Source: a virus
Virus record (IMG/VR): IMGVR_UViG_3300008219_000143
Location: 1-20,387 of that record
Strand: one strand, 5' to 3'
Length of the DNA stretch: 20,387 bases
Made by a program: the position numbers and the translations under genes. The notes below the pieces were generated by a model. That model was given only the letters and a program-made list of their open reading frames with translations, searched no databases and was not told the DNA's origin. Below are positions 1 to 20,387 of this stretch, in pieces (within the stretch, counting starts at the first letter, position 1; every line of letters starts with the position of its first letter).

Positions 1-23
1 CCAAGGGATGTTGGAGTGTATAA
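1..23 (+). CDS. possible 3' end of an upstream gene (partial)
   Basis: In frame 3 the first bases read through to a TAA stop at 21-23, so an upstream gene could end here and overlap the GTG start of the giant protein at 16 by eight bases. Overlaps of this kind occur elsewhere in the window. Only six sense codons are visible, so nothing can be said about the product, and the reading could be chance. Confidence 0.25.
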
Positions 24-3000: not shown

Positions 3001-5538
3001 CGATGGCTCCAAGCCAGAAACGATATGACTTTCAGGGAGATGGTAGAGAAGCGCAAGGTTGAACCTGTTAGCTGGAACCCTGTGGATATGGCCTTCAGAA
3101 GAGTGCAAGAAGGTCAGGAATTCATGCTTAACTACCTTTTACTCAAACATGCAAGAAGATTAGAAATTGCAGTTGATGCTGGCGATCCAAACTGGTTGCC
3201 GCATGTAGGAGATGGCAAGCCCTTAAGGGTTCCAGAGTTATCTGGGCCAGCAGCGCGCATATGGAAAGGAACGCCCATAATAAAAGAAAACGCCAAGGGC
3301 GAACTGGAATACGAGGTAGATGAAGACGGGTTAGTAAAATTAACAGGAAGCATAGCTGTTCCAAACTCATTTGCAGATACATTAGAGTCGATATTCAATA
3401 TACCGGGCATCAGCAAAACTTCTAAAAAGGGCAAAGCGTTTCATCACTACGATAGATTTGCAGATAATGTCAAGCGTATAAACCTGACCGGATCTCTGTT
3501 CCAGCACTCAGACATGATGCGTCGTGCTATTGGAGCCTCTCTTGCTCCCGAAGCACTGATCCACACTAGAGGGATGTCAGCACTTACACTTCCGTCGTTT
3601 ATTGGCGAAGCCTTCAATGTTTCATTTAGGCCAAGTAAACGGAAGCAGCTAAGGAGAGATATTTTATTTGGTGAAGATCCTCTGCGAACCACTAAGCTAG
3701 GTATAACTTGGCCCATGCTTGTTGAACATGGCGACCTTGGTATTGTTGGAGACACAACCATCTTCAACAGAAATATCAGGGAGTTCATTCAGGCAGAAGA
3801 AAAATGGATGTACTCTAATACAGGAAAAATAGTAAAGCCATTTCTACAGTTCCGCAGATATGTAGAAGCAGGGCTATTTGATGGAATGTATACAGTTGCA
3901 AACAAGCGCGCTGTTGAGCAGCTTTTATTGCCTATTGCAGAGAGAAGGTTTTTTAAGAAATTAAGAAAAGCCGAAAAGAAATTAAGAAAACAACTTGAGA
4001 GGGGAGAGATAGATGCCACAGACTTTGAAAGGAAGCTAGGTCTACTTGAAGAGATGAGAAAACCCGGCCCAGAATCGCCGGGAGCAATAAAGGTTGCACG
4101 GATTGTAGCTGAGCAGGCAAATGTTATTACCTCTCAAATACAGCCTTGGCAGGCAGTAATAAGAAATAAACGGAACCGCGCAATCATGAGAAGGACTTTG
4201 TTTTCTATGAATGAAAACGAAGCCCTTCTAAAGCAGGCATGGCGAGCGCTTTTACCTTGGACTCCTCACATGTATCCGCCTGACCCAAAGGGATTTACGG
4301 CAAGTGCAGCAGTAAAAGGGCAGGAACGTAAGTTCAATATGCGCTTTAACGAAAACTACCGATCCTTTGTTAACTTATGGGGAGGATATGTAATTGCCTT
4401 TACGTTGGTTGCAAATGTATTCAATTACATTTCTACATTCATTGACAGTGAAGGGGACTTCATATCTAAAGCAAATGATGAAGGCCTTTATTACATTAGT
4501 GGAGGGAAGCTAGGAAAAAGACACGGAAGGCTTATGCATGAAAATCCATACCCTGTAAGATTTGGAGGGCAGTTAGCCGCATATAAGCCATTAGTAAAAA
4601 AGAAAGACGCTGAAGGAACTCCATTAAATCCATTTACAGGGTATGAAAGAAATAGATATTTTCTAGCTCCATATCTGCCGGGAATAAAAGGCCCGTCAGG
4701 TGAGCCTCTTTACATGGACATGCTAGGGCAGATGGACACTCCTATGAGATGGGGATTTTCTGCTAAGGCTGCTCTGCTTTCCAGACTTGACATACCCTTG
4801 ACAGCAGGATGGAGAGCTGCCGAAGGTACAACTTTTATGAGCGGTAAAACATCAGGAGCACTGGAAAGGATTGGAGGATTGGCATGGGATCTGTTTGCCC
4901 CTATACCAGTTAAACTGGGAGGCGATTTTCTTAGAGGGAATATACCTGCTTTAACAAGGGTTATTCCTCCTGCATACGGAGAAACACTTGGGGAGAAGGC
5001 TTCTATTTACAGGGTGATTACTGGTGAAGGAGTTCTTGCTCCTACCCGTGAAGAGTGGGAACTGTGGGATTTTGAATCAGGAGATGCAAGCAGAAGGCCA
5101 AAGGTATTTTCAAAAGATGAATTAAGTAGAATCCCAAAAGAAAGGCTAAAGGAAGATATAAGGCAGGCAGTACGATCTGGTGACTGGATGTATATATCTA
5201 AGATAGAAATGCAGCAGGGGTATCAACTATTTGAAGGAGATCGTCGCGTCCAGACACGTATGATTGATTTTATTTTCAAAAAACGCAGAGAGTGGGACAG
5301 AATCCAGCGAACAGGAACCGAGACCCAGAAATCTAAAAGGCAAAGCAGGTGGGCCTCAGAGGAAATGGTTGGATGGGCAGTATCGGTATCAAATAGGGAA
5401 GACCCTAGGGCATATGCAGGCAAAAGCTACAAGGAAAGAATTGAAGTTCCTAAAACTCCAACCGACGCAGCTAAACAATGGGTAGAAGATAACATTCGAG
5501 ATAGAGCAGTTCCCGGCCCTGTTCCCGCCGTAAAGTAA
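16..5538 (+). CDS. giant internal virion / ejection-type phage protein, 1840 aa
   Basis: A single 1840-residue frame immediately before the scaffold and capsid genes. The frame is open to the window edge, so the start may lie upstream; GTG at 16 is plausible because AAGGG at 3-7 is well spaced. Residues about 68-100 and 170-197 are Ala/Gly-rich and hydrophobic. Residues about 200-650 are charged, with low-complexity linkers. A conserved-looking block around residue 970 contains NYFPRSW and is followed by helical, Arg/Lys-rich sequence. Residues about 1310-1334 form a Lys/Arg/Glu-rich helix. Residues about 1454-1475 form a clear membrane-type segment (LWGGYVIAFTLVANVFNYIS). Such architecture fits the large internal or 'polyvalent' proteins that phages package in the capsid and eject with DNA; that is inference from size, position and membrane segments. 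No catalytic motif was recognised. Alternatives are a tape-measure-like or head-vertex protein. Phage structural identity is fairly sure, the specific role is not. Confidence 0.6.
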   Translation: MYNQSTYAPMTVIGGVPHLPMTEVVSKGDERYENITNPYGHRLDQGVWEPTEASVDIAMMFPEGWPQTLALAATGFTSPAEAALIPALALGGGLPAAGWLSGTAAPALKSIPYTGGALQYIPRTGAAFLRPISGSSNPAKALATEATAVYAANLGGQEAVRRTPEDAHPAVKFGAQMAGALGAAGISVGALKGASRAKSSAEIIYDTKKAMEVWDETYNNSAWKDQSGTTQRYKDAYGVLREAERQAKTEGYRGPVIDTSQVDSWKRPAQEGATLEPDIAVPRGAESTGRWAGDPRGEQLVRVAGGVDDDIWIPRSLEELKMSERSDEELLRIYGDIVAENGDKEIRQAIQRELISNRSSLRKKAPGIDQEDLDAPGPTVHSLEGTPNIQIRDQLSQARTDAFTRRRERNVQKRETQPFLEEPPEASMVRPEDPLSRPSILTESGKYTVFETTDPEARLLQKETGAQLEHPRNFDIHDSETGEPLLRIDTQQMPIGAAGARKTVEVSIRGLDLNGEPLPYTDQGFMNEFSQSDLTEIAQQIFKTTGADAIVGFRLRREGRPVTLRRADVGLEARTDETTAVEIEEDNNILSPAKQGLEVSEAADVQERGTISSAEDPEVTTTGLDERNRIVEPVRYKEHLESDEKAFFTRSVHSLMEIAKEQGHPFEQDLREGLPQFTREALTDIELAEFLNSQKVIDFHTDKADGYTVLDVALGRYIDDLDVSLDPAHSRKGVDKVEEAHIAHLREMALQEAKAAYLAGGRSLEAYARDNPYASHTLLNAASHFAREQAATTKLLDFERTGDVGPNPFNPDNAPDRFNRKFETIGLVDAFAEELDDIYGFGIAGRTAGDIILQDFSGSKNAGLGRLRALADDWDEKYKDVSPEFYSRETMMPLFEALDPNTYSSVTKASDSLEGFPLLQQMYHDIRLLLDDHEVQFLKFLENMSGDEDVIKRKLNAAHVAQTFMGSPNYFPRSWIREGQKLDMWDAPMTPQESMRWLQARNDMTFREMVEKRKVEPVSWNPVDMAFRRVQEGQEFMLNYLLLKHARRLEIAVDAGDPNWLPHVGDGKPLRVPELSGPAARIWKGTPIIKENAKGELEYEVDEDGLVKLTGSIAVPNSFADTLESIFNIPGISKTSKKGKAFHHYDRFADNVKRINLTGSLFQHSDMMRRAIGASLAPEALIHTRGMSALTLPSFIGEAFNVSFRPSKRKQLRRDILFGEDPLRTTKLGITWPMLVEHGDLGIVGDTTIFNRNIREFIQAEEKWMYSNTGKIVKPFLQFRRYVEAGLFDGMYTVANKRAVEQLLLPIAERRFFKKLRKAEKKLRKQLERGEIDATDFERKLGLLEEMRKPGPESPGAIKVARIVAEQANVITSQIQPWQAVIRNKRNRAIMRRTLFSMNENEALLKQAWRALLPWTPHMYPPDPKGFTASAAVKGQERKFNMRFNENYRSFVNLWGGYVIAFTLVANVFNYISTFIDSEGDFISKANDEGLYYISGGKLGKRHGRLMHENPYPVRFGGQLAAYKPLVKKKDAEGTPLNPFTGYERNRYFLAPYLPGIKGPSGEPLYMDMLGQMDTPMRWGFSAKAALLSRLDIPLTAGWRAAEGTTFMSGKTSGALERIGGLAWDLFAPIPVKLGGDFLRGNIPALTRVIPPAYGETLGEKASIYRVITGEGVLAPTREEWELWDFESGDASRRPKVFSKDELSRIPKERLKEDIRQAVRSGDWMYISKIEMQQGYQLFEGDRRVQTRMIDFIFKKRREWDRIQRTGTETQKSKRQSRWASEEMVGWAVSVSNREDPRAYAGKSYKERIEVPKTPTDAAKQWVEDNIRDRAVPGPVPAVK

Positions 5539-6484: not shown

Positions 6485-7399
6485 ATGGCACAAACTGCTT
6501 CAACAGGCAATTTGAGTAATGTACAGGAAACTATTATCAATGCAGCTAGATTCGTGCAGGAGCATAACGCCCCTTCATGGCAACTCATTGAGAAGATTCC
6601 TCTTCCTCAAGGAGCCTCAACGGTTAGAGTTCCAAAGGTTGGTCAATTCGTAGTTTCAGATCTTGTGGATGGTCTGGATATGACGGATGAGCAGTCGATT
6701 GGACTAACGTATGTAGACCTCACTTCAACAGAACGTGGGGCAAAAATAATTGTTACGGACAAACTTGTTCGCCAGAACGGTACTACTCCAATCTTCTCAA
6801 TGATTGGACGACAGTTCGGTGACGCTGCTGCCCGTAAACAAGATCGAGATACTCAGGCTCTTTACTCTGCTTTAAACGGCGGTACTGCTTTTGGTGCTGC
6901 TGCTTCTAGCATGGGTCTTGGTGCTTTTGCTGGTGCTATTGCACGCGCCAGAGGCGGCGGTAAGTCGTCAACATCAGCATCTGCTGAGACTGGGTTTGAA
7001 TCCTTTAATCCAACTTATGCAATCGTTCACCCTCATTCTGCCTATGACGTTGTTCAGTCAGCGACTGCCATCGGATCAGGCACTTCAATGAAGGTCAACG
7101 ATCAGCGTGAAGAGCGATACCTGCAATCCTTCTTTACCGGGGTTAGCTTTAACGGTGTAGATCTCTATGAATCAGGTAACATCAATGTGGACTCTTCTGG
7201 AGACATGACTGGTGTTATCGCTCAAAGAGATGCTCTTGTTGGTCTTACGTCAGTTAGCTGGCGTACAGAACGACAGCGTGATGCTTCAGCCAGAGGGTTT
7301 GAGCTTAACCACGTTGCCGACTATGGCGTGTTTGAATTAGACGATAAAAAGGGCGCTCCGCTTCTTTACGATGCTGGCGTTCCGGGTACATCGTCATAG
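6485..7399 (+). CDS. major capsid protein, HK97-like
   Basis: The product has 304 residues and begins 14 bases after the scaffold stop. Features consistent with an HK97-fold coat protein include a short N-terminal helix, the early IPLPQGASTVRVPKVG strand pair, the residue 77-100 region (LTSTERGAKIIVTDKLVRQ) typical of the E-loop and spine start, and a mid-chain P-domain segment around FNPTYAIVHPHSAYDVV. The C-terminal A-domain portion ends RGFELNHVADYGVFELDD followed by a G-x-L-L-Y-D-A motif. A Gly/Ser-rich stretch (residues about 155-167) interrupts the core. Length is ordinary for the family. It should be the most abundant virion protein, forming the icosahedral shell. The family resemblance is strong; the exact subfamily cannot be fixed by eye. 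Confidence 0.88.
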   Translation: MAQTASTGNLSNVQETIINAARFVQEHNAPSWQLIEKIPLPQGASTVRVPKVGQFVVSDLVDGLDMTDEQSIGLTYVDLTSTERGAKIIVTDKLVRQNGTTPIFSMIGRQFGDAAARKQDRDTQALYSALNGGTAFGAAASSMGLGAFAGAIARARGGGKSSTSASAETGFESFNPTYAIVHPHSAYDVVQSATAIGSGTSMKVNDQREERYLQSFFTGVSFNGVDLYESGNINVDSSGDMTGVIAQRDALVGLTSVSWRTERQRDASARGFELNHVADYGVFELDDKKGAPLLYDAGVPGTSS

Positions 7400-8808: not shown

Positions 8809-8833
8809 ATTGTGTGCTATCCTGTCAGGTACA

Positions 8834-9532
8834 ATGCCATCTCACAACATCTTAGATGATCCTGACAGACAGCTAGTAATCTGGGCAGATACAGACTTTG
8901 CAAACTGGCGTTCAACTGGAGTAAGTAAAGAGCCTTGGACTTATGACTGGCTTTCTGACTTCGATGAAACAGTCTGCCTGTATAACATCGGAGCCTGTGT
9001 TGGCACGTACTCGATAATGGCTGCTGCTCGCGGGGCCAGTGTGTACGCATTTGAGCCACTCCCTGTCAACATAGAGGCACTGCACAGGAATATCAGTGCT
9101 AATAATCTCCAGAGCAAAGTAGTGGTCTTCCCTTTTGCTTTGTCAGCTATGCAGGAAATAAAGACTTTTTATATAGCTGAGGGCTACAGTGTCATAGCTG
9201 GATACGGACTGCTCTCCTCTGATCCTGTTACTAAAGGATTGCCTAAGAACTCAAGCATAAGGCTTCCGTCATTCAGACTTAATGACATTGCTTTACCTAT
9301 AAAGAAACCTACTCATTTACTCATAGACGTAGAAGGTGGAGAGGTAGAAGTGTTGCAGGGTGCAGACATGCTGCTTGAGGGAAGTAGTATCGAGTCAATC
9401 TTAATTGAAGTGCAATCGGACACAGAAGACGAGGTTGAGGAGATACTAAACAGCTTTGACTTTAAGGCAGTTGAATCCTTTGCTCCTAGGAATCTAATGA
9501 AGTGCGTTCTCTATAACAGGGAGTATAAGTAA
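8834..9532 (+). CDS. FkbM-family SAM-dependent methyltransferase
   Basis: The product has 232 residues from ATG 8834. An in-frame TTG at 8810 would add eight residues but abuts the terminator T-tract and has no ribosome site. SAM-binding motif I is seen as CLYNIGACVGTYSIMAA, matching the family D-x-G-A-N-x-G with Tyr-Asn-Ile-Gly and Cys in place of the usual Asp and Asn. It is followed by the characteristic VYAFEPLPVNIEALHRNI strand and later LLIDVEGGEVEVLQGA, the family's ID-x-EG-x-E-x-x-V-L-x-G motif. FkbM proteins usually O-methylate sugars or small molecules and are common in polysaccharide clusters. The stop overlaps the synthase start by one base (TAATG), implying coupled translation. 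The natural acceptor is unknown; a glycan built with the neighbouring nonulosonate enzymes is a reasonable guess. Confidence 0.88.
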   Translation: MPSHNILDDPDRQLVIWADTDFANWRSTGVSKEPWTYDWLSDFDETVCLYNIGACVGTYSIMAAARGASVYAFEPLPVNIEALHRNISANNLQSKVVVFPFALSAMQEIKTFYIAEGYSVIAGYGLLSSDPVTKGLPKNSSIRLPSFRLNDIALPIKKPTHLLIDVEGGEVEVLQGADMLLEGSSIESILIEVQSDTEDEVEEILNSFDFKAVESFAPRNLMKCVLYNREYK

Positions 9533-10578
9533 TGCCATTATCTATTGACGGTCAGCTTATATCAGAAGACGAGAAAGCGTATCTGATAGCAGATATAGGA
9601 CACAACCACTCTGGAAGTATGGACAGGCTGGAAGAGATGGTTCTGGCTGCAAGAGACTCAGGGGTAAACGCAGTCAAGTTCCAGACTAGGAATCCAAAAG
9701 AAGTTTACTCACCATCTGAATACTACCGAAAGAGTGACAACCCTCAGTGGATGGATGAAACCTATGGGATTCACAGAGAAAAACTAGAGTGGTCGCCAGA
9801 GGAGTGGAAGCATGTCTTTGACTTCTGTAAAACTGTTGGGGTCACAGCGTTCTCTACTCCCTTTGACTTTCGTAGTCTGGATCTCCTGCTCTCCTTAGAT
9901 GTTCCTGCAATAAAGATAGCCAGCGGAGATGCAACCAATCTACCGCTGATAGGCGCAGCAGCCTCTCATAACATCCCTATGATAATCAGCACAGGTGGAT
10001 GCAACATAGAAGAAGTAGATGCAATAGTTCAGGTAATGACGCTAAAGAAAACTCCGTTTGCAATACTCCAGTGTTCATGCATCTACCCTGCCCCACATGA
10101 TGTACTGAACATAAAAGTTATACAGGGATACAAGGACAGATACCCTGACATTGAAACAGGACTGTCTACCCATGACCCAGATATACACCCTACCCTTGCG
10201 GCCTTTGCCCTAGGGGGCAGGATCTTTGAGCACCACTTCACTGTGAATCGTAGATGGAAAGGCACAGACAATGCCTTCTCACTTACCCCTGCAATGATGA
10301 AAGAACTCAGGAAGAATATAGATGATGTCTTTCTATCACTTGGCAGCCTTGTAAAAACTCAAGACCCAAGAGAGAAGGTCTATACAGACGAAAGAAGGAA
10401 GAGTCTGTACTGGGCAGCAACCAAGAACCAAGGAGAGACTGTCTCCGATAACGACATAAAGATTCAGTGTCCTGCCAATATCATGCACCCCGCAGATATG
10501 TACACACTCATCGGCAAGAAGATACATTCCCTAAAGGTTACTGAAGGGAATCCTGTTACTGAGGTAGACGTAATTTGA
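9532..10578 (+). CDS. neuB: NeuB-family nonulosonate (sialic acid-type) synthase
   Basis: The product has 348 residues, full length for the family. The enzyme condenses phosphoenolpyruvate with an N-acyl-mannosamine or related amino sugar to give a nine-carbon acid. Motifs in order: ADIGHNHSG at about 20-28, AVKFQT at about 47-52, AFSTPFD at 106-112, IKIASGD at 127-133, STGG at 153-156, LQCSCIYPAP at 179-188, THD at 213-215 and EHHFT at 233-237, with His 214 and His 235 at the metal-binding positions, then GTDNAFSL. A SAF (antifreeze-like) domain occupies about 285-348. In that domain the usual Arg-Pro-Gly substrate-contact motif reads Cys-Pro-Ala. Substrate (sialic, legionaminic or pseudaminic precursor) cannot be decided. 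Its start shares one base with the methyltransferase stop, and its own stop overlaps the cytidylyltransferase start. Confidence 0.93.
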   Translation: MPLSIDGQLISEDEKAYLIADIGHNHSGSMDRLEEMVLAARDSGVNAVKFQTRNPKEVYSPSEYYRKSDNPQWMDETYGIHREKLEWSPEEWKHVFDFCKTVGVTAFSTPFDFRSLDLLLSLDVPAIKIASGDATNLPLIGAAASHNIPMIISTGGCNIEEVDAIVQVMTLKKTPFAILQCSCIYPAPHDVLNIKVIQGYKDRYPDIETGLSTHDPDIHPTLAAFALGGRIFEHHFTVNRRWKGTDNAFSLTPAMMKELRKNIDDVFLSLGSLVKTQDPREKVYTDERRKSLYWAATKNQGETVSDNDIKIQCPANIMHPADMYTLIGKKIHSLKVTEGNPVTEVDVI

Positions 10579-11297
10579 TAAAAGCAGTAGCGCTTATTCC
10601 AGCCAGAGCAGGTAGTAAGAGGGTAGTAAATAAGAATATAAGAAAGCTAGGAGACAAGCCTCTTATTGCACACACAATAATTGCAGCACAGGATTCCAAG
10701 TGCTTTGATTCAATTATAGTTTCTACTGATAGTGAAGCTATTTCTGAAGTAGCTTATGAATACGGAGCAGATGTCATAGGCAGACCACCAGAGTTTGCCA
10801 CAGATACTTCCCCTGACATTGACTGGGTTATCCACGCTCTTATCAACCTAGAGATAGACGCAGGAGTATCAGAGTTTTATTCAATACTTCGACCTACTTC
10901 TCCCTTCAGAACGAAAGAAACAATACAGCGCGCAATAAATCTATGGGAAGGCATGGCTAGTCCCGCAGGGTTTACTTCACTAAGGGCAGTTGAAAAGGTA
11001 CAGCAGCATCCAGCTAAGATGTGGCAGCGTCTTTTGTCAGGTGAGATATGCCCTGTATTGCTTCAGCCATCTAAAAGTAAGTGGCACGATAACCAGTACC
11101 CGTCCCTGCCTGATGTATATACGCAGAACGCTTCTCTGGAGATAGCCTCTACATCAATGACAATGAGCGAAAGAAGTATTTCAGGTAAGAAAATTTATGG
11201 ATTCTTGACCTTAGATAACGAAGGCTTCGATATAAATACAGAATATGATCTTTCATATGCAAATGAATTACTAGAACAAGAGTTAGCTAATGCCTGA
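10575..11297 (+). CDS. neuA: NeuA-family CMP-nonulosonate cytidylyltransferase
   Basis: The product has 240 residues, normal for the bacterial enzyme domain. It activates a nonulosonic acid with CTP to give the CMP-sugar used by transferases. The N-terminal nucleotide-binding motif is ALIPARAGSKRVVNKNI (residues 6-22), followed by IIVSTDSE (47-54), RPPEFATD (70-77) and LRPTSPFR (105-112). NASLEI (185-190) comes late, and the metal-site region reads FDINTEYDL (218-226), where the second Asp of the meningococcal-type DID is Asn, a substitution that I recall in related cytidylyltransferases. The TTG start at 10575 is unusual but well supported: it overlaps the synthase stop and puts the first motif at its proper distance. 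A specific legionaminic or pseudaminic activity is equally possible. No sugar transferase follows. Confidence 0.9.
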   Translation: MIKAVALIPARAGSKRVVNKNIRKLGDKPLIAHTIIAAQDSKCFDSIIVSTDSEAISEVAYEYGADVIGRPPEFATDTSPDIDWVIHALINLEIDAGVSEFYSILRPTSPFRTKETIQRAINLWEGMASPAGFTSLRAVEKVQQHPAKMWQRLLSGEICPVLLQPSKSKWHDNQYPSLPDVYTQNASLEIASTSMTMSERSISGKKIYGFLTLDNEGFDINTEYDLSYANELLEQELANA

Positions 11298-11724
11298 AGA
11301 ACTTATTTTCAACGTACCTGATAAAGCAGAAGATGCAACTGCTAGCTTCTGGACATCAACAGAAGTTGAATATATCCAGTCTTGGGTTCTGGGAAAAGAA
11401 GAAGAAAATAATGAAAGGGTTTTGAAGCATGAATTCAAGCTGAACTATAAAGGGCAGGTAGAAATGTTTGGGGTAGTAGCAGAAGAGTCTGCTCCTGAAT
11501 CTCAAATAGAAGATATGGCTGCAAGGGTTGCGGAGAGATCAGCAGTAAAGATATTAGAAAAGCTACAAAAAAGAGGAAGCAAACTTGCACCAGAGAAGCT
11601 TGCTCTAAAAGAATACACAGACCTGCGGCGTGATGTTGCAGGAGCATTTAGGGATTACATAAGTCATGCCAAGCGCAGGTCGCAAAGCTCAACGGGCAAA
11701 ATCTACTTCAAAGGCATCTCGTAA
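11290..11724 (+). CDS. unrecognised charged helical protein
   Basis: The product has 144 residues and starts eight bases before the cytidylyltransferase stop. I do not recognise it. Residues 1-65 look like mixed strands and turns (an early AEDATASFWTSTEVEYIQSW, then a beta-like FKLNYKGQVEMFGVVAEE). Residues about 68-135 are strongly helical and charged, with Lys/Arg/Glu patterns typical of a coiled coil or helical bundle. No cysteines or catalytic motifs are seen. The 3' end overlaps the next gene by 59 bases, unusually long for this window. The start codon matches the tight packing of the cassette, so translation is likely coupled to the upstream gene. Its role could belong to either the sugar cassette or the virion genes that follow. 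Confidence 0.6.
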   Translation: MPEELIFNVPDKAEDATASFWTSTEVEYIQSWVLGKEEENNERVLKHEFKLNYKGQVEMFGVVAEESAPESQIEDMAARVAERSAVKILEKLQKRGSKLAPEKLALKEYTDLRRDVAGAFRDYISHAKRRSQSSTGKIYFKGIS

Positions 11725-12748
11725 AGATGTCTGCATACTTGGGTATGCTCAGGAGACAAGGGATCTTGTCTTTGATTTAGATGAAAGTGTAGAGATATGG
11801 GGCATCAATATGGCCCATGAGTTTCTTGGAGCGGGCAGTCGCACCGCAACTCAGTGGTATCAGCTACACCCTAGGGACTGGACTCTCTCTGAAAATAAAC
11901 CGACTGGCTATTGGGGTCGTCCTAAAAGGCACTTGACCTTTCTTCAGGAATTTGAGGGCGATGTCTTCATGTCCTACGATGAGCCAGATGTTCCTAACTG
12001 TAAGGTCTTTCCACTGGAAAAGATGTATGAGTATTTCCCAACAATATATTTCACCAGTACTTTTAGTTACATAATTGCCCATGCCTTATATCAGCACAAG
12101 CATGGAAAGAAGATAAGGAAGCTTTATCTGTACGGCATAAACCTAACAGCGCTAGATGAGTACACTCAACAAAGGCCGTGTGTTGAATACTGGATAGGTA
12201 AGTGTGAAGAAGCAGGGATTGAAGTAATTATTCCCAATGCCTCTGCTCTGTGTAAGGGAACACTGTATGCCTTTACCCGAAAGGATAAGGAAAACGACCT
12301 TGCTAAACATACCCTAGATAGGTTGCAACATTGGAAAGAGCAATATACTTTGCACTGGTCTAACATCATGGTTGTTCAAGCTATGCATAAAGAGCTTGAG
12401 CACTGGACTAAGTTTTTAGGAGAGGTATTTGAGGCTGCTGAAAACGAAGCAAAAGAGTTTGAAGGCAAGACTAAAGACGAAATAATGGTGTTTGCAAAAG
12501 AACTAGCTGATAAGATTCATGGTGTTGTGCAAGATCGCATAAGCAAAAGAGAAGGCAATAACAAGCGTATGCTTACCAAAGAGCAAACCGCTTTAAGTTC
12601 AGCACAAGGAGTTGTAAGAACAGAGCAACATTATCTAAGCTTGAATGGTGGGGTAGATCACAGGGCTCCTGCTTTACCAGAACTTAGATTCCCGGCTGAA
12701 TTTTTATCTGATGATTATGAAACACCAGATACGCCAGAGGCAATATAA
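11666..12748 (+). CDS. Rossmann-like phage protein with long helical C-terminus
   Basis: The product has 360 residues. After a basic 20-residue leader comes KDVCILGYAQETRDLVF (20-36), a first strand and loop, then VEIWGINMA (42-50). ATQWYQLHPRDW (61-72), a YFPTIYFTSTFSYIIAHAL stretch (123-141), KLYLYGINLTALDEYTQQRP (152-171) and EYWIGKCEEAGIEVIIP (174-190) follow. This order matches a phage protein family I know from annotations such as 'norphogenetic protein', with a Rossmann-type fold. Residues about 205-320 are almost entirely helical and coiled-coil-like, longer than the usual domain. The family's activity is not established. A distant similarity in fold to DUF115/Maf proteins, which act on nonulosonate glycosylation of flagellin, is suggestive beside NeuA and NeuB, but the family also occurs in phages without them. 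No better start exists than ATG 11666. Confidence 0.7.
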   Translation: MPSAGRKAQRAKSTSKASRKDVCILGYAQETRDLVFDLDESVEIWGINMAHEFLGAGSRTATQWYQLHPRDWTLSENKPTGYWGRPKRHLTFLQEFEGDVFMSYDEPDVPNCKVFPLEKMYEYFPTIYFTSTFSYIIAHALYQHKHGKKIRKLYLYGINLTALDEYTQQRPCVEYWIGKCEEAGIEVIIPNASALCKGTLYAFTRKDKENDLAKHTLDRLQHWKEQYTLHWSNIMVVQAMHKELEHWTKFLGEVFEAAENEAKEFEGKTKDEIMVFAKELADKIHGVVQDRISKREGNNKRMLTKEQTALSSAQGVVRTEQHYLSLNGGVDHRAPALPELRFPAEFLSDDYETPDTPEAI

Positions 12749-12756: not shown

Positions 12757-13164
12757 ATGACTTCTTCGGCAGGCCCTGTATGGCGGGCATATCTAGATAG
12801 TAAAAGACCCGCAGCAACTATTGGCGGCGCTACTGGCGTACCTGAAGGCGCTACCTTTGTGCTGGAAACTGTATTGCTTATTGACGGGAATACAGACTCA
12901 GGACATATAACTTCTTCTGGAACAGTAAGCCTTACAGTATCTGACTCTGTATTAAATGCAGGGACAGCCCTGATTACAGACAAGGCAAGCACTACCTTTA
13001 CTAAAACAACTGGGCTTGCTCTGTTTAAGATTACAAATACTGAGTCTAATGGATGGGAGAGCGGTACTTACAACGGCGATGTAAAGTATGCGTCTGACAG
13101 CGGTGGAACTTCTAGGTCTTTTTACTGGCCTTTGAAACTAACTGTTAGAGAGGCTAGGGACTAA
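12757..13164 (+). CDS. small beta-rich virion protein, neck or head-tail region (putative)
   Basis: The product has 135 residues, rich in Thr, Ser, Gly and Ala with regular beta-strand spacing. It opens with VWRAYLDSKRPAATIGGATG and closes with SFYWPLKLTVREARD. No catalytic motif is present. The shape resembles a beta-sandwich or Ig-like domain. It lies nine bases after the Rossmann-like gene, with a strong ribosome site, and its stop overlaps the next start (TAATG). Gene order between head and tail genes suggests a head-completion, neck or minor decoration role; this is positional inference only. Confidence 0.55.
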   Translation: MTSSAGPVWRAYLDSKRPAATIGGATGVPEGATFVLETVLLIDGNTDSGHITSSGTVSLTVSDSVLNAGTALITDKASTTFTKTTGLALFKITNTESNGWESGTYNGDVKYASDSGGTSRSFYWPLKLTVREARD

Positions 13165-14441
13165 TGGCTACCCCTACTAGGAAAAGAACCTTAAAGCAGA
13201 TCAGGCAGTCAATAGGAGTAAACCTAGATGCCATCAACCAAGACGATGGCGCGATTGAAACTACTATCTCTGATTCCTCTGGCAACTATTCTTTAATTCG
13301 CGACAACTCCCTACAGTACGGGACACATGACGAGCATCGTGGTAAGTGGATTATCGCAACTGACTCAAGCAGTAACCGACATATCAGAAGGGTTCAGGCA
13401 TCTGATCCTGATGCAAGAACACTAACAGTTTCTATTCCATTTTCCTCTGAGCCAAACAATGAATGGACGTTTGAACTCTGGGATGATTCAATCTCTCCGG
13501 TTGCATTGCATGACTACGTGAATCAATCATTGGCTGAGGTTACTAGAAAAGGATCTGTGCCTGTTAATTTAGATAGTGTTCATACCGGAGGTGGAATTAC
13601 TGAGTGGGCTGCGCCAAGCAGCGTTGTTGGGATACAGGATGTATTCACCAGACGTTCTTATATTGGTGAGCAGATTGAAAGCTTTGACGATGCATTAAGT
13701 TCCTTGGGTTCTAATGTAACTATTTATAACGACAGCGAAGATATAAGAGAAGGCAGCGGTGCGGCAAAGCTAACCGTTGGTGCTGGCGCTGGTACATCAG
13801 AGGCCCTAGCTGGCTCTTCTTTCTCCGCAATGGATCTTTCTGGGTATGACTCACTAGAGCTTTTTATAAAATCAAACACTGCTACAAGCAGTTCTAACTT
13901 TACCCTGTCTCTATACGAAGGCAGCTCTGCTAAGGAAACAATAGCACTGCCTGCTTTGACTGCTGATAGCTGGACTTATACAGAGCTTTCCCTTTCTAAT
14001 GCAGAGGTTGACACAGGCATTACAAGCTTCCGTATTAATACAGGGTCATCAGATGCAGGAGCGTTGACTCTCTGGTTTGACGACCTAAAAGCAGTGCGAA
14101 GTAAGTCAGCCCATTACGACAGAATTCCTAGGAAGTTTTGGAAAGTAAATCAAGACGACAGAACTCTTTATCTTGATGAGGATGCAAGCGTTCCCTATTC
14201 CAGACTACGGTTAACTGCGAGAAGGCCACCTGCTCTCTTGAGTAGTGACTCTGATGTGTGTGAGGTTGACTCTCAGTTTGTGATTAACTCTGCAATGGCA
14301 AAGGCATTAAGGTCATCAGCCGACAGGGGCGGGGGCAATGCTGACGCTAAGGATGAGGCAGCAGAAAGAAGAGAAGCTCAGGCTCAAGCCCTTAGATTAA
14401 AGATGAGGTCGCCTTCTGGTATTAGATGGTTTGGTGATTAA
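13164..14441 (+). CDS. neck/connector-like protein with inserted carbohydrate-binding-like jelly roll
   Basis: The product has 425 residues. Residues about 1-165 form an N-terminal part (helical start LKQIRQSIGVNLDAI, then beta strands and a segment DSISPVALHDYVNQSLAEVTRKG). Residues about 172-312 look like a separate jelly roll, with the order expected of carbohydrate-binding folds. That region opens ESFDDALSSLGSNVTIYND, has GSGAAKLTV, SGYDSLELFIKSN and SWTYTELSLS, and closes LWFDDLKAVR. Residues about 313-425 resume the main fold with YLDED and a helical Ala/Arg-rich tail (QFVINSAMAKALRSSA, then AERREAQAQALRLKM). The helical tail resembles head-tail adaptor or connector proteins. The inserted domain probably protrudes from the virion. 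Both flanking genes overlap it by one base. Confidence 0.6.
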   Translation: MATPTRKRTLKQIRQSIGVNLDAINQDDGAIETTISDSSGNYSLIRDNSLQYGTHDEHRGKWIIATDSSSNRHIRRVQASDPDARTLTVSIPFSSEPNNEWTFELWDDSISPVALHDYVNQSLAEVTRKGSVPVNLDSVHTGGGITEWAAPSSVVGIQDVFTRRSYIGEQIESFDDALSSLGSNVTIYNDSEDIREGSGAAKLTVGAGAGTSEALAGSSFSAMDLSGYDSLELFIKSNTATSSSNFTLSLYEGSSAKETIALPALTADSWTYTELSLSNAEVDTGITSFRINTGSSDAGALTLWFDDLKAVRSKSAHYDRIPRKFWKVNQDDRTLYLDEDASVPYSRLRLTARRPPALLSSDSDVCEVDSQFVINSAMAKALRSSADRGGGNADAKDEAAERREAQAQALRLKMRSPSGIRWFGD

Positions 14442-14740
14442 TGCGACACCTATACGGAACGAAAAATACATCAACATCTAATGTATCTGTTGCTCTAATC
14501 ACTGACACTTCAACCAGAGTTGTTTCCCTGACGGTAAAAGCAAGGGCTACAAATGGCAATGCAATGTTTCTAGGGTTTGATTCTGGCGTTAGTAGTAATG
14601 CAGGCTGGGAACTAACAGCAGGTTTAGCAAAAACTATTAACTATGGAGACTACTCCGCAACTGTAAAGGGCATTAACGTCTGGACAAATTGCTCTGATAC
14701 AGCAGCAAAGCTTGACTTTATAATGCTTACGGAGAACTAA
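14441..14740 (+). CDS. small beta protein, 99 aa, unknown virion component
   Basis: The product has 99 residues, predicted beta-sandwich, with segments SNVSVALITDTSTRVVSLTVKA, NAMFLGFDSG and ATVKGINVWTN, ending in LDFIMLTEN. It contains one Cys near residue 83 and no catalytic motif. Both its start and stop are shared with neighbours through TAATG overlaps, so it is tightly coupled to the connector-like gene before and the propeller-like tail gene after. A small adaptor or tail-attached beta domain is likely from context. I do not recognise a named family. Confidence 0.55.
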   Translation: MRHLYGTKNTSTSNVSVALITDTSTRVVSLTVKARATNGNAMFLGFDSGVSSNAGWELTAGLAKTINYGDYSATVKGINVWTNCSDTAAKLDFIMLTEN

Positions 14741-16677
14741 TGACTCAATCCACAGCCAGAGTTACAAGCAACAATACTGTCAATCTTGGCAACAGATTAT
14801 TCAATATCGTTGGCAAGCCACAGAGGAGACTTGTTTCTGTTTTCCCGCAAAAGATAGTTACTGGTGATTACACAAATGAATCCAACCCTGTCTCTTCTGC
14901 TCAGGTCTGGGATGATGCAAGGGGTGGCATCGGAGTAGAAAACTGGACACAGCAAGCAGCAGGTAGGCCGTGGTACTCAACGCTTTCACTCAGGCACAAC
15001 AGGCACTTAGTCCTTCAGCGCAGGGCAATATCAACCGCAAGCAATGACGATATAGGGTCAGACACTTCAGTTACTTTTCTGGCAGAACTAAACCAAGAGA
15101 TCTATTCTTTAGCTACCTCAAAGATTTATCTATACGATGACGCTGCTGATAGCTGGGGCTCTTCTCTGAGAACCTTTGCTGCCAGAGTGACGGATGTAAT
15201 AACTGCCCCTATTGGTGGAACAGACACGCTGATTGTTGCCCAGAGAGATAACCCTGTTGACTATACAACTAACGGAAGTAGCTGGACTAATGAGGCAAAG
15301 GCTACGCAGATAGAGCTAATGACTTATGGCTACAAGGATTTACTGTGGGGCATAAGCAATGAAGGGGAGCTGCATTTTCTTAGCAATTTTACTGATGGGT
15401 GGAAACATATAGCCACTCTAAAGATTCCCTACGGAGAGCCTACTAAGTTGTTTATAGGGCCGGGGCCTTCTGGAGAAGACCTGCTTTATTGCTCTACTCA
15501 AGTAGGACTATTTGTATATGACAATCTCAATGAAAGATTTGTTCAGACAGAACTGGTTCTTCCTTACCACAAAGATAATGGGAGAGGGGTAGACATCTAC
15601 AGGGGTGCTATTTATTTTTCAGCAGGAGGTTCTCTGTATAGATACCAGCCGGGGCAGGAATCAAGAATTGACATCATTGGCCCTGACCTAGAAGATGGCC
15701 TGCCTGAAAGCAGGCAAGGTGTTATCAAGGCAGCTATCAAAACCCACAATGACTTTATCGTATTGCTGGACGGGTCTGAGCTTTCAGGGTCAGCGGCAGA
15801 AGCAAATGTCCCTAACTTTACTGACGGTATACATACAAGTACGGTAATGCCATCAGGGTTTGGAAGGTCAAGCGTACTTGGGCTTGCAATGCCTAGGGCT
15901 GGATGGGAAGTGAAGTGGTCTTCTGCAACAGCAGGAGAGTCTGTATCTGCAAATATGCTGGTTACTACTGCCTATACTTCTTACAGGCTATGGTGGGCAG
16001 CAGGTGAGAATGTCTATTACCAGCAGCTTCCTACGGCTCTTGAAAATCCTAACCAAGTAACAAGTGCTCAACGAGAAGCATCAGGGATATTTGAAACCCC
16101 TTGGTACGATGCAGGTGCAGGACATCAGGACAAGACAGCCTTATCTTTCAAGGTAGACTCTGTTCATCCCTCTTCTTCAGAGACAGTACTGCTTCAGTAT
16201 GCAGTTAACTATGATGACGCTGACTCTGCTTATAGGAGCGTAGTAACTAAGAGCGTTACCTCTGAAGAGAGCTACTCTTTGCCAACGCCAAACAACCCAG
16301 AGGGGATAGTATTCAGGGCTATAAAGGCAAAGCTTACACTTACCAGATCAGGCACAAGAACATCAACTCCAGATGTCAAGCAGTTAGCATTAGTCTTTAA
16401 GAAGACCAATGAAACTTTATGGGGTTGGGATGTAGTAATTGACTTCCGTAAGGGGAAACAAGGGCAGACACCAACAGAGCAAAGGGATTATATTTTTGGT
16501 AGGTCTGTTGACTCTCTTGTAAATAAAAGGGAGCTTATTCCTTTTACATTCAGAGATGAATTAGATAACGAGCAGAATTTCTGGGTAATGATTACAAATG
16601 TAATAGCCGAAGAAGGTACAGGTAGAGATGTATCAGGGCTGTGGCGAGTTACAGTTGCTGAACCGAGGCAGTCTTAG
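14740..16677 (+). CDS. beta-propeller-like tail protein
   Basis: The product has 645 residues. Residues about 115-345 carry repeated short strands with Tyr/Trp/Asp spacing typical of propeller blades (EIYSLATSKIYLYDDAADSW, DTLIVAQRDNPVDYTTNG, DLLWGISNEGELHFLSNF, LLYCSTQVGLFVYDNLNERF, AIYFSAGGSLYRYQPG). Residues about 350-440 continue beta-rich, and about 450-545 look like a further sandwich (FETPWYDAGAGHQDKTALSF). The C-terminal 90 residues include LWGWDVVIDFRKGKQG and end in WRVTVAEPRQS. Propeller-like proteins form hubs or nozzles in short-tailed phages, so a tail nozzle or hub role is plausible. This, and the absence of a tape-measure-like gene after it, mildly favours a podovirus morphology, which is inference. 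No enzyme motif was seen. Confidence 0.65.
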   Translation: MTQSTARVTSNNTVNLGNRLFNIVGKPQRRLVSVFPQKIVTGDYTNESNPVSSAQVWDDARGGIGVENWTQQAAGRPWYSTLSLRHNRHLVLQRRAISTASNDDIGSDTSVTFLAELNQEIYSLATSKIYLYDDAADSWGSSLRTFAARVTDVITAPIGGTDTLIVAQRDNPVDYTTNGSSWTNEAKATQIELMTYGYKDLLWGISNEGELHFLSNFTDGWKHIATLKIPYGEPTKLFIGPGPSGEDLLYCSTQVGLFVYDNLNERFVQTELVLPYHKDNGRGVDIYRGAIYFSAGGSLYRYQPGQESRIDIIGPDLEDGLPESRQGVIKAAIKTHNDFIVLLDGSELSGSAAEANVPNFTDGIHTSTVMPSGFGRSSVLGLAMPRAGWEVKWSSATAGESVSANMLVTTAYTSYRLWWAAGENVYYQQLPTALENPNQVTSAQREASGIFETPWYDAGAGHQDKTALSFKVDSVHPSSSETVLLQYAVNYDDADSAYRSVVTKSVTSEESYSLPTPNNPEGIVFRAIKAKLTLTRSGTRTSTPDVKQLALVFKKTNETLWGWDVVIDFRKGKQGQTPTEQRDYIFGRSVDSLVNKRELIPFTFRDELDNEQNFWVMITNVIAEEGTGRDVSGLWRVTVAEPRQS

Positions 16678-16708: not shown

Positions 16709-19234
16709 ATGCCTTCAAGTCAAACGCTAACTGGATTTGTATATGACGCAGCAGGGAAAGCAGTTTCCTCAGCCGATGTAAAACTTTACAGGGCAGGAAC
16801 TACTACTGGCGCGCTATCTTCTACTGTTACCAATGCTTCGGGTAAGTGGACGTTTGCCCTGTCATCGGCAACTGACTCTAACTATGACGCAGGAGCGGTA
16901 GACCTAGACGTTCAGATAACTAACGCTGCTACTGGTACGGTTGGACGTATCAAGTTTGAAGATCAGGTACAGGTAGAGAGGGTTCTTGCTAGGCAATTCC
17001 TGCTTTCTCCTGACTCCAATGCGTCTTCAGGTACAGCAGCCAGAGGCTTTTTCCACCGGATTACTGGCACTACTACGCTAGGTGCAGAGATGACACACAC
17101 TCTGCCAAAGCATACTGGTACTTTCCTGATGGGGAAATCTCAGGATTCAGCAGGTGCGTTTGTTCTTGGGGATTCTCAAACTGTTACATCATCTGCCGCA
17201 GCATCATTTAAAAAGCTAACTACTACCAGCAGCCTTGAGGTCACTGGTGGTGGAGTAAAGGTAAACACCAGTAAGTTCACCACTGATTCTGATGGTAATA
17301 CTGTAATTGCAGGGACGCTTACAGTTGGCGCAAATGCAACGAGTGGAACTGATGTTATTTTCTACTCTGCAACATCTGGCGATAACTTCACATGGGATGC
17401 ATCTGCAAAGAAACTAATTATTACTGGTACAAATGCAACGACCGCTTTCGCAGTGGCAGATGGTAACGCTACGTTTGCAGATGATGTAACGATTACAGGG
17501 TCGCTGACTGTTAGTGGTACAACCACAACGATTAACTCTACCGTTACTACTTATTCTGATGCACTCGTAAAACTGGCACAGGGTACTACTGCAACTCCTG
17601 CTGCTGACCTTGGGTTTATTTTTACCAGAGGTAATGGATCTGGCACTAACATAGCTAACCGTGCAATGCTTTGGGACGAGTCCGAAGATGAATTTGCTTT
17701 TGCCTTTACAAATAATGAGACAGGGGCTACCACTGGTAACGTAACCATAGATGACCATGCTGCCCTTCACGTAGGAAAGATAGAAGCAGATGACGCGTCT
17801 GTCTTTACTCAGGGCTTTACGGTTGGTACTGATGCTAACGGGGCAGATGTTATTTTTTATTCTGGTACATCTGGAGACAATCTCACATGGGATGCGTCTG
17901 AAGAGGTGTTACAGATAACAGGAACTAATAACACAACAGCATTAGATGTTCTGGATGGTGACGTAAGAATAGTAGACAAGCTCTACTTCTATGACAGAGG
18001 AGGAGAATATATATCCTCAGACGGGTCAACTCTCACTATTACAGGGGCAACAACCTTTTCTGCAAATGTAGTTATAACAGGCGACCTAACCATATCTGGT
18101 GACGACCTGACGATGGCAACCAATACATCCGGTGCAGCTTTGATTGGTGATGGTACTAATTTCAATCCGGTAGTTATTAGCGGTGATATTGCAATAGCAA
18201 CAAACGGCACGACTACGATAGCCGATGATGCTGTGGATAGCGACCAGATCGTATCAGGGGCTATTGATGCAGGGCATATGGCTGCTAACTCAATAGACTC
18301 CGCTAGTTATGTTGACGGTTCTATTGATACAGCACATTATGCCGCTGGTTCAGTTGATACAACTGCTTTAGGAGCAGATTCAGTAACCGCAGCGAAGATT
18401 GGCGATAATGTAATTGATAGTGAACATTATGCGGCAGCTTCCATCGACAACGAACACCTTGCAGATAATGCTGTCGATAGTGCTGAACTTGCAGCAGGCT
18501 CTGTTGATACAGCCCACATCGCTGATAACCAAGTAACACTACCAAAGATGGCAGGACTTGCAAGAGGCAAGATTATATACGGGGATGCTAGCGGAGATCC
18601 TGCTGCGCTGGCAGTAGGCACGGCAGGCTATGCCCTTGCAACAAATGGAACAGACCTAGCTTATACAAACTCTTTGTTAGCAGCAGACTATGTTATAGGT
18701 GAAGACGCTGACACAAAGATTGACTTTGAAACTGCTGATGAAATTCACTTTGACGCAGCAGGAACTGAAATAGTCAAGATAGATGCTGCTGGGTTAACTA
18801 TGACTAGCGGTAAAGGAATTGTATTAGACTCCCTACCAGATTCAGACAATGAGTTCTCTGGCTTCTTTGCTTCCTTTGCAAATGCTACAGGATCAACTAT
18901 TTCTCAGGGTGCAGTTGTATACCATACTGGCACAGCAAACCAAGTTGCTCTTGCCAGAGCTAATGCAGACTCCACTATGCCAGCGATAGCTATTGCAACG
19001 GCTGATGTAGCCAATGGAGCGAGCGGAAACTTTATGCTAATGGGGATTTGCTATGACGCATCTCTTGCAACTTTAGGTATTGGCGGAGAGGTTTATGTGT
19101 CTGAAGATACCGCAGGTGCAGTTACAGCTACCCTCCCAGCTAGTGCTGGTGACAGAGTTCAGGTAGTTGGTATAGGTATGCATGCAGATAAGATGATTTT
19201 CAATCCTGATTACACTGTTGTAGAGAGGGCATAG
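16709..19234 (+). CDS. tail fibre protein with transthyretin-like head, duplicated module and decapeptide array
   Basis: The product has 841 residues, Gly/Ser/Thr/Ala/Asp-rich. Residues 1 to about 95 form a CarboxypepD_reg/transthyretin-like domain (SQTLTGFVYDAAGKAVSSADV) that probably attaches to the tail. Two copies of one module follow: residues about 211-262 and 376-425 share ADVIFYSGTSGDNLTWDAS-type sequence and then ITGTN-TTA. Residues about 508-617 contain some 11 ten-residue repeats of the form S-I/V-D-x-x-H-Y/L-A-x-x, characteristic of elongated trimeric fibre shafts. Residues about 710-841 form a beta-rich tip beginning SGFFASFANATGSTISQGA and ending FNPDYTVVERA, of a kind seen in phage fibres. 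The gene has a near-consensus ribosome site, and its TAG overlaps the next GTG. The tip may bind the host receptor. Confidence 0.8.
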   Translation: MPSSQTLTGFVYDAAGKAVSSADVKLYRAGTTTGALSSTVTNASGKWTFALSSATDSNYDAGAVDLDVQITNAATGTVGRIKFEDQVQVERVLARQFLLSPDSNASSGTAARGFFHRITGTTTLGAEMTHTLPKHTGTFLMGKSQDSAGAFVLGDSQTVTSSAAASFKKLTTTSSLEVTGGGVKVNTSKFTTDSDGNTVIAGTLTVGANATSGTDVIFYSATSGDNFTWDASAKKLIITGTNATTAFAVADGNATFADDVTITGSLTVSGTTTTINSTVTTYSDALVKLAQGTTATPAADLGFIFTRGNGSGTNIANRAMLWDESEDEFAFAFTNNETGATTGNVTIDDHAALHVGKIEADDASVFTQGFTVGTDANGADVIFYSGTSGDNLTWDASEEVLQITGTNNTTALDVLDGDVRIVDKLYFYDRGGEYISSDGSTLTITGATTFSANVVITGDLTISGDDLTMATNTSGAALIGDGTNFNPVVISGDIAIATNGTTTIADDAVDSDQIVSGAIDAGHMAANSIDSASYVDGSIDTAHYAAGSVDTTALGADSVTAAKIGDNVIDSEHYAAASIDNEHLADNAVDSAELAAGSVDTAHIADNQVTLPKMAGLARGKIIYGDASGDPAALAVGTAGYALATNGTDLAYTNSLLAADYVIGEDADTKIDFETADEIHFDAAGTEIVKIDAAGLTMTSGKGIVLDSLPDSDNEFSGFFASFANATGSTISQGAVVYHTGTANQVALARANADSTMPAIAIATADVANGASGNFMLMGICYDASLATLGIGGEVYVSEDTAGAVTATLPASAGDRVQVVGIGMHADKMIFNPDYTVVERA
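18230..18559 (+). repeat. decapeptide-coding 30-base tandem repeats in fibre gene
   Basis: About 11 imperfect 30-base units, in frame, encode ten-residue repeats such as GSIDTAHYAA, GSVDTTALGA and ASIDNEHLAD (residues about 508-617). They form a regular shaft element rather than a CRISPR or mobile repeat, since the units are adjacent with no spacers and are kept in frame. Confidence 0.8.
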
Positions 19235-19911
19235 TGGCAAACCAAGTTGCAAAAGTATCCTTAGTAGCTATTGCGGACATTGAAGAAGTAACAGGAATAG
19301 CTGACGCTAGCCTTGCAGAACTTTCAGGCCTTGAGTTTACTGGCGTAACTGACGCTCATACGCTGATCGGCAGTCCTGCTATCAGCGACGGTAGCGATGC
19401 CTCTCTTGGCTTTACTTCTGGCATAGATTCCACCTATGAGGTATACGAGTTCCACTTTATAAATATGCACCCTGAGAATGGTAATGCACAGTTTATGTTC
19501 CAAGTAAACGACTCAGGTGACGAGGGTGGGGCTTATGATGAATCTGAGATTACGTCTACTACATGGAACTGGTATAACGGTGCTTCAAAAACTGCTACTG
19601 GCCCGAATTACGAAGATGACAAAGATTTATCGAATGATGCAGATTATCAGCCCATACTTTCACGGCGTACTGGTGCTGAAGATAGTGAATCGGTTTCTGG
19701 TATTTTGACGTTATTTCACCCGTCAAGTAATACTTTCGTGAAGCACTTTATATCACAAGGCATAGGCTACCACCACGAAGATTATGCTTTGACGTTTAGA
19801 GTCGCAGGGTATATCAACGATACTACTCCTATAACTCAGATAAATTTTAAGTTTGATAACGGACAGATACAAGGCGGGCAAATTAGAATGTACGGATTGG
19901 CGAAATCATAA
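19234..19911 (+). CDS. beta-rich tail/fibre-associated protein, first paralogue
   Basis: The product has 225 residues. It starts with GTG at 19234, sharing bases with the fibre stop (TAGTG), and ends at a TAATG shared with the next gene. It contains YEVYEFHFINMHPENGNAQFMFQVND (residues about 69-94), SGILTLFHPSSNTFVKHF (154-171), RVAGYIND (191-198) and an Ile-Arg-Met-Tyr-Gly-Leu end. Such proteins, with a 'YEFHF-NxHP' start, an IxxYG-type ending and a beta-sandwich predicted in between, are common next to fibres in marine phages. The next gene is its tandem relative. A receptor-binding or fibre-tip role is inferred from position; the first 45 residues may form the attachment segment. Confidence 0.65.
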   Translation: MANQVAKVSLVAIADIEEVTGIADASLAELSGLEFTGVTDAHTLIGSPAISDGSDASLGFTSGIDSTYEVYEFHFINMHPENGNAQFMFQVNDSGDEGGAYDESEITSTTWNWYNGASKTATGPNYEDDKDLSNDADYQPILSRRTGAEDSESVSGILTLFHPSSNTFVKHFISQGIGYHHEDYALTFRVAGYINDTTPITQINFKFDNGQIQGGQIRMYGLAKS

Positions 19912-20387
19912 TGGCTAAGACACTAATTCTAGCTAAGACAGCCCCCACTGACGCGGATTCAGGCGTACTTCGGTTTGTAGATGGGGAAGATGCCGTAGTG
20001 ATGGATGACACTTATCCAGTTTATGAATTTCATTTCTATAACCTGCACCCCTCTGTGGATGCAGCAAAGGTTATGTTCCAATCAAGCCTCGATACTGGTA
20101 ACAATTATAATATTTCTACAACGACAGCTTTTCTTCAGACGTACCACAGCGAAGGCGATGGCAACGAAACATTTTCAATCAATGCAACTTACAGCGCAGG
20201 GAATAGCACTTCTGATCTTTACCTAAGTGATGGCGTTGGTTACGACAACGACCAATCTGCCAGCGGGGTTATGACTTTGTACGACCCTTCAGATACGGAT
20301 TTCGTGAAAAACTTTACGTGTGAAATTCAGCAGTCATCTGCTGGTGACACCTGTAACATTTCCCGTGTGGCAGGCTATATCAATACA
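19911..20387 (+). CDS. beta-rich tail/fibre-associated protein, second paralogue (3' truncated by window)
   Basis: An open frame from ATG 19911 runs to the window end, 159 codons without stop. It repeats the landmarks of the gene before it: YPVYEFHFYNLHPSVDAAKV corresponds to YEVYEFHFINMHP, GVMTLYDPSDTDFVKNF corresponds to GILTLFHPSSNTFVKHF, and RVAGYINT corresponds to RVAGYIND. Lengths between landmarks are similar, but the mid-region differs, consistent with a duplication followed by divergence of the exposed part. The first 30 residues (AKTLILAKTAPTDADSG) are shorter than in the first copy. The final residues, including any C-terminal motif, are beyond the window. The start is fixed by the stop-start overlap. 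Confidence 0.65.
   Translation, partial: MAKTLILAKTAPTDADSGVLRFVDGEDAVVMDDTYPVYEFHFYNLHPSVDAAKVMFQSSLDTGNNYNISTTTAFLQTYHSEGDGNETFSINATYSAGNSTSDLYLSDGVGYDNDQSASGVMTLYDPSDTDFVKNFTCEIQQSSAGDTCNISRVAGYINT

Follow-up and report, generated by a model that had tools for sequence, protein, structure and literature searches.

Our structure model of a 425-residue marine phage protein predicts that residues 166-315 form a jelly roll of the carbohydrate-binding-module (CBM) fold, set into what we call a neck protein. The jelly roll is an insert that is kept in a phage clade, and computational comparison of sequences indicates that the domain is mobile between phage and filament proteins. Because it recurs in phage tail tubes and in the swimming-filament and pilus proteins of Dehalococcoidia, we consider it a real, portable module.

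The window, by which we mean the whole stretch of DNA that was analysed, corresponds to a 20,387-base virus record. The neck gene is an intact reading frame (13164-14441), open throughout. The features referred to below are listed here, with coordinates in the window unless another locus is named.

8810-11297: FkbM methyltransferase, NeuB and NeuA-type cytidylyltransferase, between the capsid and neck genes; conserved in L005, L006 and L007
12757..13164, + strand: 135-residue protein immediately upstream of the neck; kept beside the neck in L005, L006, L007, L017 and L059
13164..13658, + strand: N-terminal core of the neck protein, residues 1-165, from the model; L027 matches residues 1-154
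13659..14108, + strand: predicted inserted CBM-like jelly roll, residues 166-315, from the fold and from its recurrence in tail tubes, archaellins and pilus proteins
14109..14441, + strand: C-terminal core of the neck protein, residues 316-425 plus stop, with modelled strands 317-354 and helices 370-386 and 393-413
14441..14740, + strand: 99-residue protein, a conserved neighbour whose order relative to the 645-residue gene varies
14740..16677, + strand: 645-residue protein, conserved after the neck; candidate tail nozzle by position, without a database match
L056:9124-10310 and L067:8292-9489: tandem tail-tube genes of prophages, with and without the jelly roll

A first structure model, made from four aligned sequences, was poor (pLDDT 55.3). 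The second, made from 40 sequences (the four earlier ones and 36 of the 59 complete relatives described below), reaches a pLDDT of 86.4 and a pTM of 0.71, with values of about 82-93 over the jelly-roll block. In this model, the N-terminal core consists of a basic N-terminal helix, beta strands, a helix at 112-125 and strands within 132-165, the last of which (132-140, 147-149 and 156-165) lie directly ahead of the jelly roll. Ten strands make up the jelly roll itself (168-172, 185-190, 200-205, 214-223, 230-237, 246-252, 255-261, 269-276, 286-293 and 301-311), and the neck fold resumes afterwards with strands 317-321, 326-329, 334-337 and 347-354 and the two helices listed above. The sequence-only reading had proposed a separate jelly roll of carbohydrate-binding type at about residues 172-312, flanked by a fold that continues after it. 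The 40-sequence model, Foldseek and VIA-align agree on such a domain, which is predicted as a separate unit and not as a segment of the core fold; the position of the insert stands as proposed, and its modelled limits are slightly wider, about 166-315.

Comparison with known structures places the domain among CBM folds. The best Foldseek match of the model is the CBM11 entry 6r3m (E 2.9e-6). In VIA-align, where models without a clear match typically reach a best Z of 7 to 8, the CBM30 entry 2c24 scores 14.7, the CBM11 entry 6r31 14.6 and the CBM4 entry 2y6k 12.6 over roughly the same residues. The HFTV1 capsid turret, 8qpg, scores 14.5 (rmsd 2.4 Å over 135 residues), and the complex I assembly entry 7zkq scores 13.9, again over roughly the same residues. 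These matches span model residues 165-322. The ten strands form a beta sandwich in the size range of a CBM (about 130-170 residues), and Z runs from 11.5 to 14.7 for entries of families CBM4, 11, 22, 29 and 30. To our knowledge, NDUFAF1/CIA30, which have their fold in common with the jelly roll (Z 13.9), are not sugar binders. Other PDB rows of the Foldseek search, for instance the capsid protein of a bird virus and an insecticidal protein, align at an rmsd above 20 Å and were not counted as relatives, and the best match in BFVD is an unnamed protein, A0A1B1ITR8 (E 3.7e-21, TM 0.62).

A search with alignment A4 returned 73 IMG/VR loci, 4 of them contigs already known and 69 new (L076-L144). 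Among the new loci, 59 have a complete neck reading frame, with 43 different sequences, and the other 10 are truncated at a contig end. The jelly roll is present in 59/59 complete new marine necks and in 6/10 cut ones; the remaining four are fragments of 87-207 residues that end before or within the jelly roll. In every IMG/VR relative retrieved, a single copy of the domain is detectable in the stretch compared, and it lies in the neck gene. Since every complete marine neck carries the domain, relatives without it had to be sought farther away. L027, a protein of 373 residues from a genome in the Dehalococcoidia search, matches the family profile at residues 1-154 (probability 96.9, E 1.4e-10) and the N-terminal core by hmmsearch at 3e-12, and gives no match to the jelly-roll domain. 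Only about 134 residues follow the matched part, close to the length of the C-terminal core, whose profile does not find L027. Comparison with a relative lacking the insert thus bears out the proposed insertion, as this remote protein has the N-terminal core of the neck without the jelly roll. In 8 of the 59 complete necks (L121, L122, L123, L125, L126, L133, L140 and L141), a beta module of about 65 residues is itself nested inside the jelly roll.

The domain also occurs well outside necks. We ran A2, the profile of the full neck, against 393 genomes of Dehalococcoidia, the class to which the bin behind L017 belongs. Twelve genomes matched; two of the hits are full-length necks, and most others cover only residues ~170-315. 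Because the neck-family profile finds the jelly-roll part alone in other protein contexts in these whole-genome searches (E 1e-18 to 1e-10), the feature is more than chance. The domain alignment A3 matched 14 of the same 393 genomes and 6 of 400 genomes of the phylum; three of these six were already in the class set, and the other three are weak matches in proteins of about 1340 residues. Among the carriers, all five archaellins scanned match PF01917 Arch_flagellin at their N-terminus (1e-11 to 2e-19; L022, L023, L024, L031 and L064:1749), the neighbours of L061 are of T2SSE, T2SSF and KaiC type, as at archaellum loci, and L026 and L030 were judged archaellin-like by eye. Further carriers are a PilX-like protein, a PilN-like protein whose BACON domains split the jelly roll (L070:9305-11137), a tail-tube protein that matches the major tail protein family phrog_1407 (1.4e-8), and additional necks with SU10_adaptor matches of 6e-4 and 6.7e-4. 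The other classifiable locations of the domain are likewise virion proteins or archaellum and pilus proteins. Inserted sequence also splits the jelly roll of a 515-residue protein (L071:8984-10531).

As a control for circularity, we built a profile solely from the 40 phage-clade necks. It still recovers the archaellins, with values of about 1e-15 to 1e-32 in the sequence sets compared, and the profile-profile comparison of neck and archaellin domains gives a probability of 99.8 (E 1.5e-29). Two siphophage-like prophages each have tail-tube genes in tandem, one of which is longer than the other by a clean insertion of ~145 residues (122 vs 268 residues in L056, 123 vs 270 in L067). Necks that carry the domain, tail tubes with it and paralogues without it, and a neck core that lacks it together fit a mobile virion decoration. 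In a tree of 56 domains, the archaellins require at least three label changes, with details that are unsafe and a direction of transfer that the tree does not settle, because long branches meet and the root is arbitrary.

We infer the name neck protein from gene order together with weak matches to the Pfam family SU10_adaptor in remote relatives. PF24175 matches L066 (6e-4), L029 (6.7e-4) and L027 (0.02, C-terminal half), all below the 27-bit cut-off, and matches neither the window protein nor any member of the family table of 40 relatives. For the window protein, searches of PHROGs and NCBIfam gave no match, Pfam gave only a sub-threshold, chance-like one, and tblastn against 50,697 phage records gave none; PDB sequence searches with the protein, its domain or three alignments returned nothing credible. 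Profiles of the whole neck, its core and its domain, compared with 27 SU10 and T7 proteins, adaptors included, all stayed at a probability of 0.6 or below. Within the 40 relatives, PHROGs matches are scattered and weak (phrog_4406, 'virion structural protein', 1.6e-6, 2/40; phrog_1101, 'tail protein', 2.4e-5, 3/40), and Pfam rows are mostly chance-like, the commonest being MgpC (9/40, best 0.0074). The strand order and C-terminal helices of our model are compatible with an adaptor fold. An important caveat is that the VIA-align match list is filled by the jelly roll and barely covers the core, so adaptors missing from it prove nothing.

Close IMG/VR relatives share the gene order MCP, NeuB, NeuA, 135-residue protein, neck, 99-residue protein and 645-residue protein. 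In L013, about 1.2 kb separates the neck from the 99-residue gene, and in the bacterial copies the large tail gene comes first and the 99-residue gene second. The nozzle label of the 645-residue protein is positional only, since it has no PDB sequence match and its PHROGs matches among 16 relatives are all above 0.05.

Some other genes of the window deserve mention. The 360-residue protein at 11666-12748 falls in no Pfam family; L006 and L007 have two copies of it (the second at about 12.4 kb), and L008 and L168 have one. The genes at 19234-19911 and 19911-20387 lie in tandem and both match phrog_14820 (E 1e-41 and 2e-38), a PHROG without an assigned function. Positions 1-5538, before the scaffold gene, encode an open-ended protein of at least 1845 residues that has a distant large counterpart in L007 and no PHROG of note. 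The MCP (6485-7399) is 26-28% identical to the MCPs of four Pelagibacter phages and two others, and is related to that of Pelagibacter phage HTVC111P, whose annotation includes a tape measure protein. No tail gene of the window, by contrast, has a match in the HTVC111P record, a combination that could reflect a swap of head and tail modules.

How might a virion use this domain? We tentatively favour, by analogy, a CBM11/CBM30-like decoration displayed on the neck adaptor that gives low-affinity, reversible contact with glycans. The gene would encode a portal-proximal, adaptor-type neck protein of a probably short-tailed marine phage, and residues 166-315 would be a portable jelly roll, set within the beta part of the neck fold and displayed outside the virion around the head-tail joint. 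There it would most likely act as a multivalent, low-affinity adhesin that reversibly engages a surface rich in glycans, be it host envelope, appendage or particle, as an initial step ahead of commitment by the tail fibres. The neck role, the exposure, the copy number (12 if the protein is like known adaptors) and the glycan contact are points that we infer, the exposure because the model is of a monomer only.

Putative sugar binding by the jelly roll is plausible from its fold and from the precedent of HFTV1. The galactose-binding-like domain of the HFTV1 turret has been proposed to bind host glycans reversibly (PMC12494034), and head-first binding has been described for this virus (PMC9973310). 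In phage OWB, the T7-type tail proteins A and B are reported to bind a host receptor (PMC7241545).

At the level of profiles, the neck domain has a remote similarity to CBM11 that we regard as real. Compared with 10 Chloroflexota CBM11 domains, it reaches a probability of 87 (E 3.9e-6), and controls reach 0.1 with five column-shuffled profiles and 0.2 with one reversed. The family model PF03425 (CBM11) does not match the window protein and matches 1 of 40 relatives (E 0.0011). Aromatic residues average 6.1% in the 40 phage domains and 6.0% in 6 archaellin domains, vs 13.9% in the 10 CBM11 domains, a shortfall that counts against sugar binding. The conserved positions include E232 and an aromatic residue at 234 (both 40/40), K236 and W270 (both 39/40) and Tyr/Phe 272 (36/40). 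Of these, the Trp-type positions 234 and 270 alone line up with the conserved Trp of CBM11, and they may have a structural role. The way hydrophobic residues alternate with them suggests outward-facing side chains at 232/234/236 and 270/272/274.

Within the protein, conservation is highest in the jelly roll, with a mean pairwise identity of 0.61 vs 0.50-0.57 for the other parts (780 pairs). Conservation above that of the surrounding core is not the pattern of a receptor binder that evolves fast; host-range determinants seldom show it, and it speaks against rapid host-range evolution. The same conservation, together with the presence of the domain in all 59 complete relatives and its paucity of aromatics, would suit a structural part of the neck, either a fibre dock or a capsid clamp, in which the CBM fold is reused as a ligand-free scaffold. 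We consider this possible, if somewhat improbable. In the model, the jelly roll has strands of the neck's beta part on either side, and adaptors of other phages offer parallels: in SU10, long fibres are held by dock domains and radial loops of the adaptors (PMC9509320), and the R4C adaptor has an Ig-like domain that is thought to stabilise the neck (PMC10276861). A structural role sits less well with the recurrence of the domain in tail-tube, archaellin and pilus proteins, which have neither a capsid nor a fibre nearby, or with L027, whose N-terminal neck core does without it.

Rather unlikely, in our estimate, is a reading in which a CBM-like family of Dehalococcoidia surface filaments and virions would be common to host archaella and pili and phage necks and tail tubes, the phage would attach to the filaments or to the same ligand, and the module would have been exchanged with the host motility apparatus. 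We also think it unlikely that the jelly roll is a target or shield for glycosylation, an exposed, Ser/Thr-rich surface bearing O-glycans and perhaps nonulosonate from the phage NeuB/NeuA pair. Ser plus Thr amount to 27% of the window's domain vs 17.5% of its core, but only to 14-20% in several homologues (L017, L019, L020 and L021). Genes for NeuB (PF03102, 7e-64) and the cytidylyltransferase (PF02348, 3e-23) lie 2-4 kb upstream of the neck, and likely O-glycans are reported for a Chloroflexota archaellum (PMC12488501). The NeuB gene is close to the neck in the window and in its 97% relative, and NeuB homologues are near the neck in L005, L006 and L007. However, 45 of the 69 new loci extend 5 kb or more upstream from the neck, and a NeuB match at E 1e-4 is found there in 0/45, with copies elsewhere in those genomes being possible; no known glycosyltransferase was identified beside the neck, where the 360-residue neighbour has no Pfam match. 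The same 0/45 leaves unsupported the speculation in the sequence-only reading that the domain binds the phage's own nonulosonate. Finally, it is very unlikely that the module is a filament-related one through which the virion docks on or mimics the host archaellum or pilus, by like-with-like or shared-ligand contacts: the strong neck-archaellin match and the label changes on the domain tree would fit, but the tree has long branches.

Phage Ig-like decorations are portable beta domains across unrelated virion proteins. The jelly roll resembles them in its portability among virion proteins, and differs in its fold and in its additional occurrence in bacterial archaellins and pilus proteins. With CBM families 11 and 30 it shares the fold (Z 14.6-14.7 over ~140 residues) and, for CBM11, the remote profile similarity; unlike them, it has less than half the aromatic content and is carried by virion and filament proteins, and its binding is putative. 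HFTV1 gp31 (8qpg) likewise places a CBM-type jelly roll outside the virion of a tailed virus, with a proposed role in reversible adsorption to glycans, but does so on the capsid turrets of an archaeal virus and beside a deacetylase-like domain, whereas the window's domain is in a neck protein, alone. SU10/T7/KP32 adaptors (tail tubular protein A type; PF24175) resemble the window protein in their place between the capsid genes and the large tail gene, in the helices at the C-terminal end and in having a beta part, which in T7-type adaptors is reported to dock fibres. The window protein differs from them in lacking a direct sequence match, PF24175 appearing only in remote relatives, and in its large extra jelly roll. 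The R4C adaptor also has an accessory beta domain on a marine phage neck; this attachment domain is Ig-like, N-terminal and in touch with the capsid, and the CtCBM11-like domain of R4C sits on a tail-tip protein.

Virion decoration as such is known, and capsid turrets and tail tips are sites for which carbohydrate-binding-like domains have already been suggested. As judged from sequence, the CBM-fold decoration domain is new as a family common to phage necks, phage tail tubes and bacterial archaellins, and the new point is the presence of one module in both a phage neck and host motility filaments. We found no paper on such a domain in the adaptor of a short-tailed phage or in archaellins, in a search whose thin coverage of subscription journals and preprints makes it weak evidence of absence; PMC12488501 does not contain the words 'carbohydrate', 'jelly' or 'insertion'. 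A neck jelly roll that is fixed in a large marine phage clade and has a homologue inserted in archaellins ties the virion to the decoration of host filaments. If both bind the same ligand, this would point to a shared target on the surface of SAR202-like bacteria of the ocean, about whose phages little is known.

Domain sharing also helps to suggest a host group for the phage clade. Two Dehalococcoidia bins contain full-length necks together with the tail gene that comes next, which makes a host of this class plausible for the clade, and the nearest cellular relatives of the window phage itself appear to be in Dehalococcoidia. Phage-like loci in two Dehalococcoidia bins, L072/L073 (G001 contig C34, ~212-234 kb) and L059/L168 (G353 contig C49, ~37-58 kb), each have a terminase-like gene, the 135-residue gene, the neck, the large tail gene, the 99-residue gene and a homologue of the 684-residue reading frame of L006. 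Terminase_6N has no match in G001 or G353, and no MCP match was found genome-wide in G353. We regard the locus as a candidate domesticated phage locus, perhaps GTA-like; a literature search found no GTA paper for the Dehalococcoidia group. At both loci, the phage genes are dispersed among the same housekeeping genes (AhpC/TSA, CinA, DAO and RraA), with 79-90% identity between the bins. Values of dN/dS are 0.05-0.11 for the neck, tail and 99-residue genes, similar to the 0.04-0.11 of three flanking genes, and are rough because dS is saturated. G001 additionally carries the MCP and scaffold genes.
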